From NCBI GenBank assembly GCA_937924775.1, contig CALDUT010000010.1:124001-188000 (forward strand): a stretch of 64,000 nucleotides of DNA, written 5' to 3'. Position numbers and translations under genes: made by a program. Shown here in pieces: positions 15,605 through 64,000 of the stretch; position 1 is the stretch's first letter; each line of letters begins with the position of its first letter. This stretch comes from an uncultured Gemmata sp. (lineage in GTDB: Bacteria; Planctomycetota; Planctomycetia; Gemmatales; Gemmataceae). Under the pieces are notes generated by a model. The model had not been told where the DNA came from. It saw nothing but the letters and a program-made list of their open reading frames with translations, and did not search any database.

Positions 15605-16564
15605 ATGGCCACCGCCGTTGAACCCAGTTCCGCACCCAGTACCCCCCGCAAAACACTCAGCTTGCCCATCGCCAGTCTGTTGGGGGCCATTTACGTTGTG
15701 GCGGTGCTGGCGGTGATCTCCTACCTCTTGCCGATGCTCTGGGTCGAGCAGGTTTCTCCCCGCATCCGCGACAACTTCCTCGATTGGGTCTTCTGGCTTC
15801 CCACCTTGGCGTTGGTCACCGGAGGGTTGTTCTGGTTCGGTGCCCGGCTGGCAGGAGAAAATGTGCCGGCGGGCACGCGTGGCGGCATCTTCCTCATGCT
15901 GGTGACCGCAGCGGTTATCTTCCTCATCGTCCGAGAGTTCGCGGTAGCTTTCGATGGGGCGGCTGGGCAGGTCGTTGGTGGGATCATTGGGCTGGTTTTG
16001 CTCTTTTTGGCCGTCCGGCTTTTCACCAGCCCCACGGGCACACGTTGGATGGTCAGCCTCGAAGAGCAGGGTTGGTTCTCCACTCATCAATATAAGCGTT
16101 CACTGGGATTGCGGGTCCGCCGGTTGACAATTCTGGGGATTCTGCTCATCGGTTGCAGCGGAGCCTATACCCTCTGGTTCCAAGGACTTTTGCCCAACCG
16201 GTGGACGATGACGATGCCGTTTGGTCTGGAGCCGATCGTTGTGATGAACAACGCTGCGGAAGTGATTCCCGCTCTCATCTTTCTCCTGACGCTGTGGATC
16301 GCCTGGCGGGCCGTCAATGTGCCCACCTTCGCGGAGTTCCTCATCGCCACCGAAGCAGAAATGAACAAAGTCTCCTGGACCACGCGGAAACGGCTCGCCC
16401 AAGATACTGTTGTGGTCCTGATTACCACTCTGCTGTTGACCATCTTTTTGTTGGTGGTCGACTTGTTCTGGGGTTGGCTGCTGAGTAACCGCTATGTGGG
16501 GGTTCTTCCCAGTGCAGCGCCGGCCCCAGAAAAAGCTGGGCAATTCCAAGAAGTGAAGTGGTAA
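15605..16564 (+). CDS. secE: Preprotein translocase subunit SecE with long multi-span N-terminus
   Basis: SecE clamps SecY in the protein-export channel. The C-terminal 65 residues carry the SecE signature: an amphipathic helix FAEFLIATEAEMNKVSWTTR followed by one membrane helix (VVVLITTLLLTIFLLVVDLF). The 319-residue length is far above the 60-130 usual for SecE. The first 240 residues contain about six further hydrophobic segments (near 20-45, 60-80, 95-115, 120-140, 178-198 and 210-232), which I do not recognise as a separate family. Position between trnW and nusG supports the call. Start is ATG at 15605 after GAGGATGGAGT. Confidence 0.9.
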   Translation: MATAVEPSSAPSTPRKTLSLPIASLLGAIYVVAVLAVISYLLPMLWVEQVSPRIRDNFLDWVFWLPTLALVTGGLFWFGARLAGENVPAGTRGGIFLMLVTAAVIFLIVREFAVAFDGAAGQVVGGIIGLVLLFLAVRLFTSPTGTRWMVSLEEQGWFSTHQYKRSLGLRVRRLTILGILLIGCSGAYTLWFQGLLPNRWTMTMPFGLEPIVVMNNAAEVIPALIFLLTLWIAWRAVNVPTFAEFLIATEAEMNKVSWTTRKRLAQDTVVVLITTLLLTIFLLVVDLFWGWLLSNRYVGVLPSAAPAPEKAGQFQEVKW

Positions 16565-16600
16565 CGCAGACCCTGGAGGCGGCCCTGCGGCCGAGTTCCG

Positions 16601-18043
16601 ATGATCAACGAAACCGCCACCCCCCATGACAATCATCACCGCGAACCATCCGCGGAAACTCCGCCGGTCTCATCGGATGCTTCCCCGGGGGCTGATGCCG
16701 CCCGCTGGGCCTCTGGTTATGGGGACTCCAGCGAACCAATCTCAAACATGCCCAGCGAGATCCAGCCAGAAACTGCAACACCCGGAGAATCCTCATCAGC
16801 CCCCCCGTCCACCGGGACTGGGATTGAACATGAACTGAGTTCCACGCCCCCCTGCGAACTTCCCACGACCGACAACTTCTCGACCACAGAACCCGAAACA
16901 GGCTCCCCAGAGCTGACCCCGCAACAGCCGGGCCCGACGGAGGGCCTCGACGAATCGACAGTCGATGTAAAACCTGACTCTGGCAGCGTTTCCGCAGAGC
17001 ATTCCTCGGAAATCATCGCGCCTGCATCCACGGCGGAACCCGCATTGACCAGCGACGAGCCCGCTGTCTTGACCGCGGCAACCGCAACACAATCTGACCA
17101 AAAATTGGACAGCGCCGCAGGTCCGGCCCCAGAAGAAGCGATTGGATTCGTGGAGGAATCGACCGGCAGTGCCTCAGAAGTTGCTGCCAACACGTCGGCC
17201 CCGGCGGCCGAGACTGTTCCGGAATCTACGGAAAGTTCTGCCAAATTAGAGGTTGCGGCAGAACATGAGGAGTCCACCGGATCGGGGGGGGGGACGTCAC
17301 CGAAAACAGAACCGCCGGCAAAGCCGAAACGGACGCGTAAGAAAGCCGCCACGGGCGAAGCGGGGGCCGCTGCTGTAACGGTCGCGGAATCGACCTCGGC
17401 ACCTGCCGCAACCCCGGCGGAGGAGCCGCCCCCGCCAGAAAACAAGAAGAAGTGGTACGCCATCAAAGTCCAAAGTGGCCGGGAAGATACCATCAAAGCC
17501 GCGATTCTCCGGAAAGTCGCCATCGAGGGTCTGGAGCAATACGTTGGGCAAATTGTCATCCCGGTCGAAGAGGTGGTGGAGAAGAAGACAGTCCGCATCA
17601 AAGACAAAAAAACTGGGGAATACACCACACAGGAACGCAAGGTTACCAAAAAGAAGAAGAAATTTCACGGTTACATCTTTGCGGAACTGGAGTTCAACGA
17701 CCGGATTCTTTACCTGTTCCGCGAAACCAGCGGTGTTGGCGACTTTTTGAACATGCGGGGTAAACCCCCTGTCCCCGAACCGATGCCCGAGCATGAAGTG
17801 CAATCCATGCTCACGGGGATCACGGTCAAGGACCCGCTCAAGCGCGCCAAATTCAAGCTCGATTTTGAAAAAGGCGATCGGGTTCGCATCCGCGAAGGCT
17901 CATTCATCAACAATGAGGGTGAGGTGAAGGAAATCTCCGAAGTGAAGGATCCCACCGATACGCCAAAAGTCAAGGTAGAACTCACCTTCTGGGGGCGGCC
18001 GTTGGAAGTCGAACTCGATGCCTCGCAGGTGGAGAAGATTTGA
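16601..18043 (+). CDS. nusG: Transcription factor NusG with a 280-residue acidic N-terminal extension
   Basis: NusG binds RNA polymerase and couples it to ribosomes or Rho. The conserved part begins near residue 283 (KKWYAIKVQSGREDTIKAAI) with the NGN domain, including KFHGYIFAEL where most bacteria have FPGY, and ends with a KOW domain (FEKGDRVRIREGSFINNEGE, to 480). Inside NGN a basic insertion (RIKDKKTGEYTTQERK, then several Lys) is longer than usual. Residues 1-280 are low-complexity and mostly Pro, Ser, Thr, Glu and Ala, with a Lys/Arg patch near 240-250; they are probably disordered. The whole stretch is one open frame directly after secE (36-base gap), so the extension is likely translated, though an internal start cannot be excluded. 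Confidence 0.92.
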   Translation: MINETATPHDNHHREPSAETPPVSSDASPGADAARWASGYGDSSEPISNMPSEIQPETATPGESSSAPPSTGTGIEHELSSTPPCELPTTDNFSTTEPETGSPELTPQQPGPTEGLDESTVDVKPDSGSVSAEHSSEIIAPASTAEPALTSDEPAVLTAATATQSDQKLDSAAGPAPEEAIGFVEESTGSASEVAANTSAPAAETVPESTESSAKLEVAAEHEESTGSGGGTSPKTEPPAKPKRTRKKAATGEAGAAAVTVAESTSAPAATPAEEPPPPENKKKWYAIKVQSGREDTIKAAILRKVAIEGLEQYVGQIVIPVEEVVEKKTVRIKDKKTGEYTTQERKVTKKKKKFHGYIFAELEFNDRILYLFRETSGVGDFLNMRGKPPVPEPMPEHEVQSMLTGITVKDPLKRAKFKLDFEKGDRVRIREGSFINNEGEVKEISEVKDPTDTPKVKVELTFWGRPLEVELDASQVEKI

Positions 18044-18665: not shown

Positions 18666-18902
18666 CGGTACAACCTCACCCATGGCGATGGCCCGCGTAG
18701 CCTGTGCGGAGATGTTAGCCCAAGCCGATTGAGGGTTTTCGTCCCACAGAAACGCGTGAGAAAATTCGCCTCTCCGTTGCCGTCGTTTTCTCCATCTTGT
18801 AAGTATTACCTTCTCACGACCGCGACTTGGACCTGAGTTGCGGGAGGGGTTGTAGTTGTGCCACGTCACAATGAACCCCGTCAATGCGAGGCCTGTGGAT
18901 CC

Positions 18903-19817
18903 ATGGCAAAAGAAAAAGACAAAAAAGCTGATCCAGCCAGCGCCCCTCCAGCCGCGGAGGCGATGGCCACGGCTGCAACCAGTGAGGCCGCCGCGACGGC
19001 AGCTTCCTCCGCTCTAGGGCCCGAGGCGGCTCCCGCGGCTGCGGCACAACCGGCAGACAAAGACAAAGGCGGTGAGGGTGAAGGGGTTCAGAAACGCAAA
19101 AAGCCGGGGATCGCACCTCGCCGCGGTAAGAAACTCCGCAATCACCTCAAAAACATCGAGCGCAAGCTTCGTGAAGCCGGGGCTATGCCGGTCAAACAAG
19201 CCGTTGCGGAGCTGAAAAAGCTCAAGCGAGCCAAATTCGACGAAACTGTCGAATTGCACATCAACCTTGGAATCGACCCGACGCAGTCGGATCAGATGGT
19301 CCGCGGGGCCATTCCGCTGCCCCATGGTATTGGTAAAAGCGTGCGGGTGGCGGTGTTTTGCCAAGGGGATAACATCGCCAAGGCGAAAGAGGCGGGGGCA
19401 GACGTCGTCGGCGGAGCCGATCTGGTCGAAAAAGTTCAGAAAGAAAACTTTCTCGATTTCGACGTCGCGTTGGCTTCTCAAGACATGATGGGCCAAGTCT
19501 CGCGGTTGGGGAAAGTGTTGGGGCCCCGCGGTTTGATGCCCACCCCCAAGGCGGGTACGGTGATTCCGGCCTCCGGCGACATCGCCGCCGCGGTGCGGGA
19601 ATTCAAGGCCGGGAAGGTGGAGTATCGTTCCGACAAAACCGGCCAGATTCATGCCGGAGTCGGAAAATTGAGTTTTGATGATCAAAAATTGATCGAGAAC
19701 ATCACGGTTTTCATCGATCAAGTGCGGGCTGCGAAACCCGCGGGGGTCAAAGGGAGCTTCATCAATGGCGTGGTGCTGTCGGCCACGATGTCCCCAGGCA
19801 TCCGGCTTTCCATCTAG
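18903..19817 (+). CDS. rplA: 50S ribosomal protein L1 with low-complexity N-terminal extension
   Basis: L1 is the mobile arm at the tRNA exit site and a translational repressor in many bacteria. The L1 core starts near residue 75 (KKLRNHLKNIERKLREAG), with ELHINLGIDPTQSDQMVRG, GKSVRVAVFCQGD, LGPRGLMPTPKAGTV and IGVGKLSF-like IHAGVGKLSF. The first 70 residues are Ala/Glu/Lys-rich, so the protein has 304 residues against about 230 in the family. I chose ATG 18903 (MAKEKDKK), the usual L1-type start. A GTG at 18858, in frame, has a stronger ribosome-binding site (GGGAGGGG, eight bases before) and would add 15 residues. Either start leaves the extension in place. Confidence 0.93.
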   Translation: MAKEKDKKADPASAPPAAEAMATAATSEAAATAASSALGPEAAPAAAAQPADKDKGGEGEGVQKRKKPGIAPRRGKKLRNHLKNIERKLREAGAMPVKQAVAELKKLKRAKFDETVELHINLGIDPTQSDQMVRGAIPLPHGIGKSVRVAVFCQGDNIAKAKEAGADVVGGADLVEKVQKENFLDFDVALASQDMMGQVSRLGKVLGPRGLMPTPKAGTVIPASGDIAAAVREFKAGKVEYRSDKTGQIHAGVGKLSFDDQKLIENITVFIDQVRAAKPAGVKGSFINGVVLSATMSPGIRLSI

Positions 19818-46328: not shown

Positions 46329-49300
46329 TCAAGGTTCCTCGGGTTCTTTCTCCTCGTGGGCTTCGCGGTTGGAGTCGAGCGGCAAGGCTTGGAACCCGTT
46401 TACATCTGCCCCCACCTCAATCGATAGTTCCTCAGAGCGATCCTGGAATTCCGCCATCTGAATTATCAGGTGGTCAGGTTGAACCTTAGTAAGCTCTCGG
46501 AGGGGAGGAACCGGTGAGCGGAAGCGGATTTCCCCAAACCGTTTTTCGGCATCCGGCGGCGGTTCGGCGACGTTGTCGATCCACGCGGTGCGGGTCCACT
46601 CTTTGGGAAACCCCTCACCATTCGGACGGATCGCAGCGAGAACCGCACTCGTCTCGTAATTGGCGTAGCGGTTAGCTTTGGTGGCACGCCAACTGAAGAC
46701 CGATTTCCCTTCCGCAGGATCCACGCCGTCTACTTCCACCAACGGGCGACCGGCATTAGGAACCGCGACAAACAGGCATTCGGCCGCCTCCACCTCCACT
46801 TTGAGTAACCCCCCGGGGCGCATGGCATCCGAGGATTTGCTACCATGCAGCTCGAGAATGGGGCCGCCGGTCAAGGCGGTGACCCGAGTGAGCTTGAGGC
46901 TGCTTGTTCCGCCACCCAGGTTTTTCCCACCTGCTTGAGCATAAAACAGAGCGTCATCCAGGGCGGTAAGCGTGTTGCTCAAAGCCACTTCCACCGGGCG
47001 GCTGACAGAATCGATCCACACCGCGCGGCCTTTCCCTCGCAACAGGCAGTTGTGGAAGGCCACCTTCGGGACAGGACGCGCAGGGGTATCCATCGCCATG
47101 ATCTTATCGGCATCCGGGAGATGAACGGCCGCCGCCGGCGAATCCTCTTCACCAAAAAACGTGAAGATGCAGTGGTGGAAGGTGCAGCTTTTGCCTCCGA
47201 TGATACTGACCGCGGCCACCGTTTGTTCATCGCGCGGGCGATTGGGTTTGAGCCGGAAATGAAGCCGCTCGAAGGTGACTTCCCCCGCTTTGAGTTTGAA
47301 CAAACTTTGGTCCCGGTCGTTGTCGGCTTGGATGACCAACACCGGTTGGCAGTCTGCATCAGGGGCGAATTTCACGCGCATGTCCCCGTCGCCAGGCCGC
47401 GCGGGGGATTTGATGTCGATCGTATCGAGTTCGAGTTCGCCATGGTGACGAATATAGATGGTTTCGTCAGGGCGAATGGTCTTCAGAAGCGTTGTCAGAT
47501 CGTTGGAGATACCCGGGGCGAGTTCGGCGTCGGTGGCTGTTGGCCACCAGATTTTGCGGGGTTCGGCGGTGCGGGGCCGGAAGGAGCCCCACGCCATGGG
47601 CAACTCCTTGTAAGCTCGGCGAACGTTGTCGGCCTGGTGAAACGCGGCCCCCAGTGGCACAGCCCGTTGTTTGGAATCTTTAGTGTACTCGGTGGTGTAG
47701 ATGCCCGGTTCAGCGTCGTCATCCACTTTCAGGCGAAAGCCTTTCCACGGTTGACTTGATCGGACCACTGTCAACGGTTCACTCTCGGCCCACGGACGCT
47801 GAGCCAGTTTCGTATGCCCTTTGCCGTCGATGGTTGGCACCTCCGATTTCCACGTCTCGAAGCTCCATGTGGTCCGCGAAGTACCGATCGGATCCACGCG
47901 ATAATAACCGTTGATACGGCCATTGGGGACCACCCATTGAACCCCATCGGGCCGTTCAGCCCGCACACGCACCATCACGCCGCGGCGGTTGGCTTCGGAA
48001 CGGGCGATGGGTGAGCGGATGCGAGGACCATTAACGGCGGCGAAAAGACAATCGGCGGTGGTTACCGTTATCCGGGGCGAGGTCCCGGTGTCGATCGCGG
48101 CTCCGCCGGGGTCCACCATGAAGGTGCTGTGGTTCAGTTGAATTTCCGTGGGGTTGAGGAATTCCCCGACGCTCTGGCTGTCCACCAGCACGCATGCCGC
48201 GTGGGGAGCAAAACCGCTATCCGTGATCGTGAGCCATGAGCCGCTGGGGGCCACCAAACCGATGGCGGCCGGGGAATTGATCGCAAAAACGCAGCGTTGC
48301 GCGTGGATCGCCGGGGGAGTATCCGTCCGGGAATAGATCGTTACCGCCCGCGGTTCATGGTCCGTGAAGCGTTCATCCGCGCTTGTGAAAACACAATCCC
48401 ACAGTTCCACTTTGGCACAATCCTCAACACGCACACCCTCCGGTTTCGTGATGCCCACTTCCTCGATGTTCAAATCCGGATCAAGAACGAACTGAAACCA
48501 GAGATTGCGAAGGACCAGCGTTTCAGCTTGAATGGTGAGAGTGCCATTGGTTCGGAAATCGTCGGCGAAGAGGATCAATTTGGTGATACCGCTGGTGGAA
48601 CTCATCGGGACGCCCACGAGCTCCAAGCTTTTCCCTTGAAAGCGAAGCGGCCGATCGAGTCGTGTCAGGTCGTATTCCCCGGGAGCCAAGGCGATCTTGG
48701 TGGTGTTTGGGTCTTCCAAGTGTTGGACCAACTCGGCGACGGTTCGCACTTGGGCTGTCACAGGCAGTGGGCGCTGCCCTTTGGGGGAGCCATTTCCAGG
48801 CTCCCTAAGCGGAGGGGAGTCCAATCCCACTGGCGGTGGGGAATCACTGCGGAGCAATCCTGGCGGTGGGGGCGGTTGGCTGGTCCCGATCACAAAGGCG
48901 GCAATAGCCAGAACCGCGGCGCAACTTGCTAACAGCCACCAAGGCTTCAATTGGGGGGGGGATGGCAGCAGTTGACGTTCCGCAGGCACAGCTTGGAGTA
49001 CGGCATCTTGGGAAACCGTGGCGGAATCCAACCGCAAACGCTCGGCTAATCCTTTGAGGTGGGCGATCAGTTCGCGAGGCGTTTGGTAGCGCTCGGCGGG
49101 TTGTTTGGCCATCATCCGGGCCAGAATCACCGCCAGCTCATCGGGGATGGCCGGGTTCAGCAGCCGGGGATCGAGGGGTGATTCGAACTGATGCGCGCGG
49201 AGTTTGCGGGCCGCGGTGCCTTCGGGGACTGGGGGACGACCAGTCAATGCGTGATAAAAAGTACAACCCAATGAATAGATGTCGCTGCGAACGTCGGTGC

Positions 49301-50195
49301 GCCGCGGGTCGAGAGCTTGCTCGGGGGAGATGTAGTCGAACGTGCCAAGCGTCACGCCTGATTGGGTGACGCCGCCATTGACCGCCTCGGAGTCGAGCCG
49401 GGCTAGGCCCATATCCACGATCTTGGCCCGCCCGTCAGGGGTAATAATGATGTTGGCGGGTTTGATGTCGCGATGCACCACGCCTCGTTCCGCCGCGTGA
49501 TTAAGCCCAGCGGCCACTTGGAGCATGTAACGGACACAGTCGCTGGCTGACAACGGGCCATTACGATCGATCAGCTGCCGCAGGTTGATCCCTTCGACAA
49601 ACTCAAAGGCGATAAAGTGTAACCCCTGATCTTCCCCGCAGAAGTAGACCCGAGCAATATTTTCATGATCGAGTGCGGCCGCAGCCCGAGCCTCTTGTTT
49701 GAAACGTGTCACCGATTCGGGATCGCGAGCGGCCAATGGCGGGAGAATCTTCAACGCGACCGTGCGGCCCAGTTGTGTGTCGTAGGCTTTGAGGACCGCC
49801 GCCATCCCCCCTGAGCCGATGGTCTCGATCAGTTCAAAATGTCCCAACCGCCGACCGGCGATGGCCGCAGGATCAGTGGTCATCGCCGTGGGTGTGTTCA
49901 GAGATGGCGGCGGGAACGAGGAGAGGCCTTTGCCGTGGGTGATCACCGTGGGGGCGTCGTCCGAATTTACGGCCGCATCGCCGGCGGAGGTGACCAAAAA
50001 TTGGGCAACGTCAGACTCTCCGGGTCCTGAGGGTGGTGCTGGCGCAGGATTTGCTCTCTCAATCGGTGGATGGGAAGAGGATTCGGCATGGGATGAGGTG
50101 AGATCGTTTTGGGCTGTAGCATTATCCCATGTACGGTTGGCCCCCGCGGATGGGGCTACTGGAGAAGAGCCGCTCGAATTGGGCAGATTGGACAT
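46329..50195 (-). CDS. Transmembrane Ser/Thr protein kinase with beta-helix-like external domain
   Basis: The 1288-residue protein starts with a disordered Ser/Pro/Ala-rich part (1-110), then a eukaryotic-type kinase domain (about 119-384): Gly loop IGSGGMAAVLKAY, catalytic Lys in TVALKIL, HRDIKPANI, the DFG position as DMG, and FDYISPEQALD. One membrane helix follows (WWLLASCAAVLAIAAFVIG, about 420-438). The outer part of about 840 residues has strand-rich segments (LTIQAETLVLRNLWFQFVLD; AEDCAKVELWDCVFTSADER-like VEDCAKVELWDCVF; KLKAGEVTFERLHFRLKPN) with the short-strand, Asn/Cys-laddered look of right-handed beta-helices, in two blocks (about 490-720 and 890-1110). It could be a sensor of polysaccharide or other polymer. 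ATG 50195 was chosen; a TTG 21 codons upstream is in frame. Targets are unknown. Confidence 0.88.
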   Translation of the reverse strand: MSNLPNSSGSSPVAPSAGANRTWDNATAQNDLTSSHAESSSHPPIERANPAPAPPSGPGESDVAQFLVTSAGDAAVNSDDAPTVITHGKGLSSFPPPSLNTPTAMTTDPAAIAGRRLGHFELIETIGSGGMAAVLKAYDTQLGRTVALKILPPLAARDPESVTRFKQEARAAAALDHENIARVYFCGEDQGLHFIAFEFVEGINLRQLIDRNGPLSASDCVRYMLQVAAGLNHAAERGVVHRDIKPANIIITPDGRAKIVDMGLARLDSEAVNGGVTQSGVTLGTFDYISPEQALDPRRTDVRSDIYSLGCTFYHALTGRPPVPEGTAARKLRAHQFESPLDPRLLNPAIPDELAVILARMMAKQPAERYQTPRELIAHLKGLAERLRLDSATVSQDAVLQAVPAERQLLPSPPQLKPWWLLASCAAVLAIAAFVIGTSQPPPPPGLLRSDSPPPVGLDSPPLREPGNGSPKGQRPLPVTAQVRTVAELVQHLEDPNTTKIALAPGEYDLTRLDRPLRFQGKSLELVGVPMSSTSGITKLILFADDFRTNGTLTIQAETLVLRNLWFQFVLDPDLNIEEVGITKPEGVRVEDCAKVELWDCVFTSADERFTDHEPRAVTIYSRTDTPPAIHAQRCVFAINSPAAIGLVAPSGSWLTITDSGFAPHAACVLVDSQSVGEFLNPTEIQLNHSTFMVDPGGAAIDTGTSPRITVTTADCLFAAVNGPRIRSPIARSEANRRGVMVRVRAERPDGVQWVVPNGRINGYYRVDPIGTSRTTWSFETWKSEVPTIDGKGHTKLAQRPWAESEPLTVVRSSQPWKGFRLKVDDDAEPGIYTTEYTKDSKQRAVPLGAAFHQADNVRRAYKELPMAWGSFRPRTAEPRKIWWPTATDAELAPGISNDLTTLLKTIRPDETIYIRHHGELELDTIDIKSPARPGDGDMRVKFAPDADCQPVLVIQADNDRDQSLFKLKAGEVTFERLHFRLKPNRPRDEQTVAAVSIIGGKSCTFHHCIFTFFGEEDSPAAAVHLPDADKIMAMDTPARPVPKVAFHNCLLRGKGRAVWIDSVSRPVEVALSNTLTALDDALFYAQAGGKNLGGGTSSLKLTRVTALTGGPILELHGSKSSDAMRPGGLLKVEVEAAECLFVAVPNAGRPLVEVDGVDPAEGKSVFSWRATKANRYANYETSAVLAAIRPNGEGFPKEWTRTAWIDNVAEPPPDAEKRFGEIRFRSPVPPLRELTKVQPDHLIIQMAEFQDRSEELSIEVGADVNGFQALPLDSNREAHEEKEPEEP

Positions 50196-50299
50196 TTCGG
50201 CTCGCACGCGGATTTCGGTTCGAATGACCCGCTCGTTGCTATCGGCCACACCGAACAATCAGGGCGACTTTTAACTGTCTTGAGAACGAAACCTGCATC

Positions 50300-61934: not shown

Positions 61935-64000
61935 ATGCCCGACATGGACCCACGTTGGTACAAGGACGCTATCATATATGAACTCCACGTCCGAGCCTTT
62001 CACGATAGCGTCGGCGATGGCTACGGCGATTTCCGCGGCCTGACCCGAAAACTCGATTATCTCGAAGACCTCGGCATCACCGCGATCTGGCTGTTACCGT
62101 TTTATCCCTCGCCGCTCAAGGACGACGGCTACGACATCGCCGATTACATGAACATTCACCCGCAATACGGGAAACTCGAAGATTTTAAGGAATTTTTGGC
62201 GGAAGCCCACAAACGCGGCATTCGCGTGATCACGGAATTGGTGATTAATCATACCTCTGACCAACACCCGTGGTTTCAACGGGCTCGCCGCGCCCCTAAG
62301 GGTAGTCCCGAACGGGATTTCTATGTGTGGAGCGATACGCCCGAGAAATACGCCGAAGCCCGCATCATTTTCAAGGACTTCGAACCGTCGAATTGGTCGT
62401 GGGATCCGGTCGCCAAGCAGTATTATTGGCACCGCTTTTATAGTCATCAGCCCGATTTGAATTACGACAATCCCGCGGTTTGGGATGCGATTTTGCCCAT
62501 TGTCGACTATTGGTTCGAAATGGGCGTCGATGGCATGCGGTTGGATGCCGTACCCTATCTCTACGAGCGGGATGGAACCAATTGCGAAAATTTGCCTGAA
62601 ACACATCAATTTCTGAAGGTACTCCGGCGGCGGATGGAAGAACGCTTCCCGGGGCGGATGTTCTTGGCCGAAGCCAACCAGTGGCCCGAGGAGGCCGTTG
62701 CTTACTTTGGCGACGGCGACGAATGCCATATGTGCTTCCACTTCCCGGTTATGCCACGGCTGTTCATGGCCCTGCACCAGGAAGACCGCTTCCCCATTCT
62801 CGATATCCTCGACCAAACGCCACCTATCCCCGACAGTTGCCAATGGTGCCTTTTTCTGCGCAATCACGACGAGCTGACGCTGGAAATGGTCACCGACGAA
62901 GAACGCGACTACATGTACCGGGCCTACGCTCAAGACCGCAACGCCCGAATCAATCTCGGCATTCGGCACCGATTGGCCCCGCTGTTGAAGAACGACCGGC
63001 GGCGTATCGAACTTATGAACGCACTGTTGTTTTCGCTTCCCGGCACGCCCGTGGTCTACTACGGTGACGAAATCGGCATGGGCGATAACATCTATTTGGG
63101 CGATCGCAACGGTGTTCGCACACCCATGCAGTGGAGTGCCGACCGCAACGCCGGTTTCAGCCGGGCTAACCCCCAAAAACTGTACCTGCCCATCATCATC
63201 GACCCGGAATACCACTACGAAGCCGTCAATGTCGAAGCGCAGCAGAATAATCCCAGTTCCTTATTGTGGTGGATGAAGCGGCTCATCGCTCTGCGTAAGC
63301 AGTTCAAGGCTTTTGGCCGCGGCAACATTCGGTTTTTACGCCCCGAAAATGCCAAAGTGCTGGCCTTCATTCGCGAGTACGAGTCGGAACGGATTTTGGT
63401 AGTCGCGAATTTGTCGCGGTTTGTGCAGTATGTGCAACTGGACCTTCGCGACTATGCCGGGGTGGTGCCCGAAGAAGTGTTCGGTCGGACGCCCTTTCCG
63501 CCAATTGGGGAATTACCCTATCTACTGACGCTATCGCCCCATGCCTTTTACTGGTTCTTACTGCCAGTTCGTCATCCGAGCGTCAATATCGATGCGACAC
63601 CCGTGGAACGGGCCAGTGAACTGCTGCCACGGCTCCGCGGAGAACGCCCCTTGGCCGCGTACTTCGATCGCTCGAATTGGGACGATCTCGAAGCCATCAT
63701 GCCCGACTATTTCCGCCGCCGCGGTATCGGCCACGGGCGGGGACCCATCACCGCCACCCGGATTCTCGATGTCTTTCTCATAAAAGTCGGTGATGCGGAA
63801 GTGTGGTTTTTGATTGTGCGGATTGAATATCGCAGCGGGATTCCAGAAACCATTTCGATTCCGCTCACCTTGGTGCCGGAAAATGAGTTGCCGCAACTTC
63901 TGGGACCGGTGGAAGAATTTGGCTTCGCCATCCTCGGCGGGTCCACGCCGGGCGTTCTCTGCCAAGCCCTCGCCATCCCCACCTGTGCTCGGGCCGTGTT
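61935..64000 (+). CDS. treS: Trehalose synthase fused to maltokinase domain, 3' end cut by window edge
   Basis: An open frame from ATG 61935 runs off the window after 688 codons. Residues 1-540 are a GH13 trehalose synthase (maltose alpha-glucosyltransferase): [36 protein letters not shown], nucleophile Asp204 in [10 protein letters not shown], Glu246 in [11 protein letters not shown], Asp312 in [10 protein letters not shown], and [17 protein letters not shown]. From about 545 the sequence changes to the N-terminal cap of a maltokinase ([40 protein letters not shown]). TreS-maltokinase fusions turn trehalose into maltose 1-phosphate for alpha-glucan synthesis. The maltokinase catalytic part lies beyond the window. 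Divergent malQ fits a glycogen/trehalose locus. Confidence 0.95.

Follow-up and report, generated by a model that had tools for sequence, protein, structure and literature searches.

NusG/Spt5 is the only RNA polymerase factor conserved in all life; Spt4 is not expected in bacteria. Acidic NusG extensions longer than that of Mycobacterium tuberculosis occur in other Actinobacteria. M. tuberculosis NusG itself (238 aa; PDB 8e74 and 8eos) has extra residues before the NGN domain, with the profile match beginning at chain residue 33. In eukaryotic Spt5, an acidic unstructured tail, Spt5N, is located directly before the NGN domain, between the downstream nucleosome and the upstream DNA, and a long acidic tail in this position is said to be found in eukaryotic Spt5 and nowhere else (PMC8886531). 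In another core transcription factor, the Rho protein of Bacteroides, short positively charged motifs within an intrinsically disordered region (IDR) bind RNA and, by prediction, are restrained by acidic segments (PMC13269538); short Rho IDRs have also been noted in Gemmata obscuriglobus (PMC11829017). Finally, in phage T4 genes 38 and 25, a hairpin shortens the distance between the Shine-Dalgarno (SD) sequence and the AUG from 22 to 5 and from 27 to 11 nt, respectively (PMC3014915). In the literature searched, which was largely open access, neither Gemmata NusG nor any long NusG extension of a bacterium is described.

The gene analyzed here lies in a 64-kb stretch of the genome of an uncultured Gemmata sp. 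(hereafter, the window) and occupies positions 16601-18043 of the plus strand (480 codons and a stop), with its open frame beginning right behind the TAA of secE (16562-16564). The NGN domain (17447-17809, +; residues 283-403) is matched by Pfam NusG (PF02357, E=3e-15), in agreement with the sequence-only reading, which had placed its beginning near residue 283, and is followed by a single KOW domain (17858-18040, +; about residues 420-480), recognized in the structure model and through KOW-only PDB chains matching residues 419-479. The NCBIfam nusG model TIGR00922 covers residues 285-480 over the full length of the profile with 111.6 bits, a score lower than the equivalog cut-off of 135.7 bits, which is an annotation threshold rather than a biological defining feature; plausibly, the score is lowered by an insertion in the NGN domain. 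The paralog models for LoaP, UpxY and RfaH score far below the nusG model on the same protein. No second PF02357 match was found in the 4.79-Mb genome. The gene is followed by rplK, encoding L11 (18198-18665, +), in the usual order secE-nusG-rplK-rplA. The model of the NGN-KOW core, built from a 37-sequence core alignment (an alignment of five full-length sequences yielded a poor NGN domain), superimposes on Escherichia coli NusG in 6c6u_N with a target-normalized TM-score of 0.90 and an rmsd of 1.4. Thus, on the strength of domain order, fold, gene context and single copy, the product is NusG, sharing with the E. coli protein the PF02357 and KOW domains, the secE-nusG-rplK order and the status of a single housekeeping copy. 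By family membership, it would be expected to bind the partners of housekeeping NusG, namely, RNA polymerase, Rho and S10. Within the NGN domain, a Lys-rich β-hairpin (17567-17656, +; residues 323-352, with modeled strands at 323-334 and 341-352) is about 16-20 residues longer than its counterparts in other Gemmataceae genera according to the alignment.

Two of the neighboring genes have peculiarities of their own. The upstream secE (15605-16564, +; 319 codons) is N-terminally extended with transmembrane (TM)-like segments, and Pfam recognizes only its C-terminal 50 residues (PF00584 at 244-294); most Gemmataceae loci tested encode SecE of about 315-340 aa with ~6-7 TM-like segments, compared with mostly about 120-175 aa and 2-3 such segments elsewhere in planctomycetes. 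Ribosomal protein L1 (window 18858-19817) is extended N-terminally by a low-complexity Ala/Pro/Lys segment of roughly 100 aa, although its true start may be an internal ATG at MAKEKDKK.

Unlike E. coli NusG, the Gemmata protein begins with an acidic tail of 281 residues (16601-17443, +) bearing a basic patch, far exceeding the pre-NGN extension of M. tuberculosis. Of the tail residues, 67% are P/S/T/E/A, including 72 Ser/Thr, and only 4% are K/R, for a net charge of -36. AlphaFold2, run with a shallow five-sequence alignment, assigned pLDDT below 50 and no secondary structure to nearly all of residues 1-288, which bears out the earlier description of this region as disordered; as stated there, it is also one open frame. 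Among 362 crude ORF calls from 464 kb sampled from this genome, it ranks as the third longest disorder-like segment and the longest N-terminal one. Combined with the evidence of translation considered below, these features indicate that NusG carries a translated, predicted disordered acidic tail directly before the NGN domain.

The initiation signal of nusG has an unusual layout. An SD-like GGAGG (16575-16579, +) is located 21 nt 5' of the ATG, its complement being present in the 16S 3' end found in the genome, GGATCACCTCC, and a hairpin, CGGCC-CTGC-GGCCG (16580-16593, +), occupies the interval and, when looped out, leaves a spacing of 7 nt. The same plan, a GAGG-type SD followed by a hairpin of 5-6 bp with a 3-4 nt loop, 7-9 nt and the ATG, was found in all 17 members of the genus, despite tails ranging from 96 to 309 aa, and in two nusG genes of a neighboring genus. 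In all 19 sequences, the linear SD-ATG distance of 20-25 nt is cut to an effective 6-9 nt, within the range of about 5-11 nt characteristic of split ribosome-binding sites. The regular start behind secE proposed from the sequence alone is thus marked by an initiation signal directly 5' of codon 1 throughout the genus. Double-sided changes preserve the pairing at pair 2 (G-C to A-U in L077) and pair 5 (C-G to A-U in six sequences), and when the 3' arms were re-dealt among the six distinct hairpins, the observed complementarity was reached in 1.7% of trials, with kinship ignored. An exact-sequence search returned the leader pattern 3 times in the genome and twice in the control; what identifies it is therefore its conservation rather than its rarity. 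Folding thermodynamics are unremarkable (z-scores -0.06 to -1.7), the hairpin did not form on folding in one of six leaders (L063), and in several leaders the SD can pair alternatively with the spacer; hence, it is conservation and the pair changes that argue for the hairpin. No known RNA family matched the leader hairpin, with only tRNA-Trp exceeding its gathering score.

In a narrow, ATG-only scan of the window, the nusG leader was the sole such arrangement preceding a long frame. A looser scan over 464 kb returned 15 start-like places followed by at least 90 open codons, compared with 4 in the reversed control, most of them with weaker hairpins and GTG or TTG codons and many possibly intragenic, and we do not claim a genome-wide signal from it; a weaker SD-hairpin-ATG before an open frame at about 62690-62725 (+) of the window was detected in this looser scan only. 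The nusG leader is therefore best described as a putative arrangement like the split ribosome-binding sites of T4 genes 38 and 25, with the hairpin between SD and AUG shortening the spacing from 21 to 7 nt and a putative effect on translation. Unlike the phage cases, it belongs to a chromosomal housekeeping gene and is conserved across a bacterial genus. Given the alternative pairing of the SD, a regulatory switch at this leader is also possible.

The substitution pattern likewise points to a translated tail. In the closest relative, the Gemmata sp. SKYG68 MAG (G022/L062/L102), this layout recurs with a 309-residue tail in the same frame, which makes an assembly error unlikely. Since further members of the genus, some with genomes finished in one or a few contigs, also encode tails of this kind, if shorter ones, an assembly or frameshift artefact was rejected. 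In this closest pair, the extension is 37% identical and the core 99%, and divergence of the extension at codon positions 1, 2 and 3 is 0.48, 0.38 and 0.74, respectively, that is, highest at the third position; a dN/dS ratio is not given for this pair because dS is saturated and the tail alignment loose. In the five other related pairs with estimable dS, dN/dS was 0.16-0.57 for the extension vs. 0.01-0.15 for the core and, for the extension, below 1 in every pair. Moreover, no in-frame ATG, GTG or TTG occurs from residue 185 to about residue 302, and an internal start near residue 280 was rejected on this ground. Taken together with the conserved leader, these observations strongly support translation from 16601, and synthesis from about residue 280 only, which would have undone the case for an extension, can be set aside.

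The tail is a family-wide trait. We searched 95 Gemmataceae genomes, 88 of which yielded an NGN match, and found a tail of about 30-309 aa in nearly every NusG examined, the starts outside the genus being less certain, as they were set by the first ATG or an M[ST][DE][DE]-like start. With 281 residues, the Gemmata tail lies near the long extreme and is the second longest true extension among the Gemmataceae examined, so the original impression of an unusual size holds. In the tree, the window lineage and its sister expanded to about 300 residues vs. about 100-220 in other members of the genus. In a sample of the phylum, closer inspection of 20 loci whose open frames are unusually long showed tails of about 95-130 residues in families of the same class (L119-L123), about 130 residues in one other family (L124) and about 80 in L111; most of the remaining long frames represent open frame 5' of an ordinary start near the NGN domain. 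Similarly, apparent NusG frames of 596 and 654 aa (G033, G092) were rejected because most of their length precedes the likely start.

Within the genus, the tails retain an M[ST][DE]E-like start, an EPxPEN-like acidic end before the NGN domain, a basic patch and net negative charge, but are otherwise barely conserved, with length and most of the sequence free to vary. Across 40 genes, every tail has a negative net charge per residue (-0.18 +/- 0.06), which is uncorrelated with GC, whereas the Ser/Thr fraction falls with core GC3 (Spearman -0.73, 40 genes) and the Ala fraction also tracks GC3. Because residue content follows GC3 and charge does not, this pattern suggests that charge, rather than particular residues, is under selection in the tail.

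The basic patch, PAKPKRTRKKAAT (17315-17353, +; residues 239-251), is a cluster of K/R residues (shuffle P=0.0005) about 33 residues before the NGN domain, and is identical in the closest relative; the sequence-only reading had missed it. Patches varying in sequence are present in 16 of the 17 genus members (shuffle P <=0.007 in each), in which 71% of the tail K/R residues fall inside one 14-residue window located 24-66 residues before the NGN domain. In the closest pair, K/R positions are the best-kept class (9/11), and acidic and Pro positions, too, are better conserved than Ser/Thr positions. Patches also occur in separate branches (L089/L090 and L025/L100, with weak cases in L083/L084, P 0.11 and 0.03) and, by eye, in relatives of the same class (L119-L121). 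The acidic tails of one congener (L076) and of the neighboring genus g37 lack a patch, which is thus dispensable in some lineages. A canonical AT-hook (GRP core) was sought and not found in the NusG patch in the 17 genus genes. Its probable role is to hold on to DNA or RNA close to RNA polymerase.

Our leading, although still tentative, model is that of an acidic tether presenting a nucleic-acid-binding basic patch near upstream DNA or RNA; its anatomy can be read in the sequence, and from it we infer each functional step. The NGN domain would bind RNA polymerase near the upstream fork, where the tail would emerge as a flexible tether, and the patch would add a second contact of low specificity, either with the upstream DNA duplex or with RNA as it emerges. 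Such a contact could increase the occupancy or processivity of NusG, or its coupling to Rho. The acidic stretches might screen the patch by intramolecular attraction, such that binding would occur mainly beside the nucleic acid of the polymerase, and the long Lys-rich hairpin of the NGN domain may contribute to this contact as well. Counting against this model are the patch-free tails of L076 and g37, the scant conservation outside the patch and the ends, the variable patch sequence with no AT-hook core, and the Ser/Ala balance, which follows GC as in a lightly constrained spacer.

The main rival explanation is near-neutral low-complexity expansion, under which the tail would be a translated, tolerated, soluble acidic spacer of drifting length and the patch incidental or a relic. 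The spread of lengths (96-309 aa in the genus, about 30-309 in the family), the GC-tracking composition, growth by repeats visible in L081 and L083, and 37% tail identity next to 99% in the core are all compatible with such drift; nevertheless, the start, reading frame, patch and net charge are all retained between widely diverged sequences, K/R residues are the best kept in the closest pair (9/11) and extension dN/dS is below 1 wherever dS could be estimated, and we consider this explanation rather unlikely, if a serious one.

Less credence still goes to a condensate or hub, in which NusG, Rho and RNase E/G would share patch-bearing disordered regions and their tails would co-condense with RNA, by analogy with Bacteroides Rho, whose IDRs phase-separate (PMC13269538). 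The genome encodes two full-length Rho proteins and a shorter Rho-like one (L168:8419-10113, L167:15668-17251 and G000:C1:157872-159014), a set similar to that of most of its congeners. The N-terminal region of Rho1, about 148 aa long and disordered, contains the patch TPRSTSRSRSKKA and a GFxxGIVD-type motif common to the genus, and Rho2 is likewise extended; an AT-hook-like RGRPRK is present in the Rho of one congener (L144). In RNase E/G (L151:12060-15074, -; 1004 aa), a disorder-like insertion of about 464 aa containing KKSRGRKAKAKA separates the S1 match from the catalytic domain. Against this inventory, the NusG tail is strongly acidic overall and lacks multivalency, with one patch and few aromatics, and its comparison with a phase-separating IDR draws on the charge pattern.

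An Spt5N-like chaperone, a tail that would capture basic nucleoid proteins displaced by the polymerase and re-deposit them behind it, appears quite improbable. The Gemmata tail resembles Spt5N (PMC8886531) in being acidic, predicted disordered and directly N-terminal to the NGN domain, but no conserved acidic motif comparable to the histone-binding motif was seen by eye or alignment, and conservation of the acidic residues applies to the class, not to individual positions, with no partner identified. Furthermore, unlike Spt5, Gemmata NusG has one KOW domain, and its conserved block is basic. Very improbable is a phosphorylation-regulated tail, which the sequence-only reading had proposed next to a tether: of the two, the tether stands as the plausible, leading reading, whereas the dependence of Ser/Thr content on GC3 removes the main support for phosphoregulation. 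Neither the 72 Ser/Thr residues nor a Ser/Thr kinase gene in the window (46329-50258) outweighs this dependence, the poor conservation of Ser/Thr sites relative to D/E, P or K/R, and a Ser/Thr content of 6-9% in some congeners (6% in L065). That the tail is not made at all, translation starting inside or near the NGN domain, is barely conceivable, as no support for it was found and, although Met50 offers an internal start codon and non-canonical starts occur in principle, the start-codon-free stretch from residue 185 to about 302, the SD-hairpin-ATG kept at codon 1 and the coding-type substitutions all oppose it.

Returning to the tether model, its patch-bearing tail shares with the IDR of Bacteroides thetaiotaomicron Rho short basic motifs in a charged disordered region of a core transcription factor, but belongs to a different protein and is known from its charge pattern. 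At best, the tail would work like Spt5N or like this Rho IDR; the features tested do not establish its membership in either. On the evidence of charge and predicted disorder, however, the statement that acidic pre-NGN tails are restricted to eukaryotes (PMC8886531) fails for Gemmataceae and needs amendment. It is a speculative and doubtful extension of these results that Gemmataceae independently evolved an analogue of the Spt5 acidic tail and that patch-bearing disordered tails join NusG, RNase E/G and the two Rho proteins into a nucleoid transcription-termination-decay hub in this genus. The Gemmataceae tails, about 30-309 residues long and not all of them bearing the patch, constitute a natural series for the function of pre-NGN tails, one that bears on elongation, termination and nucleoid traffic.
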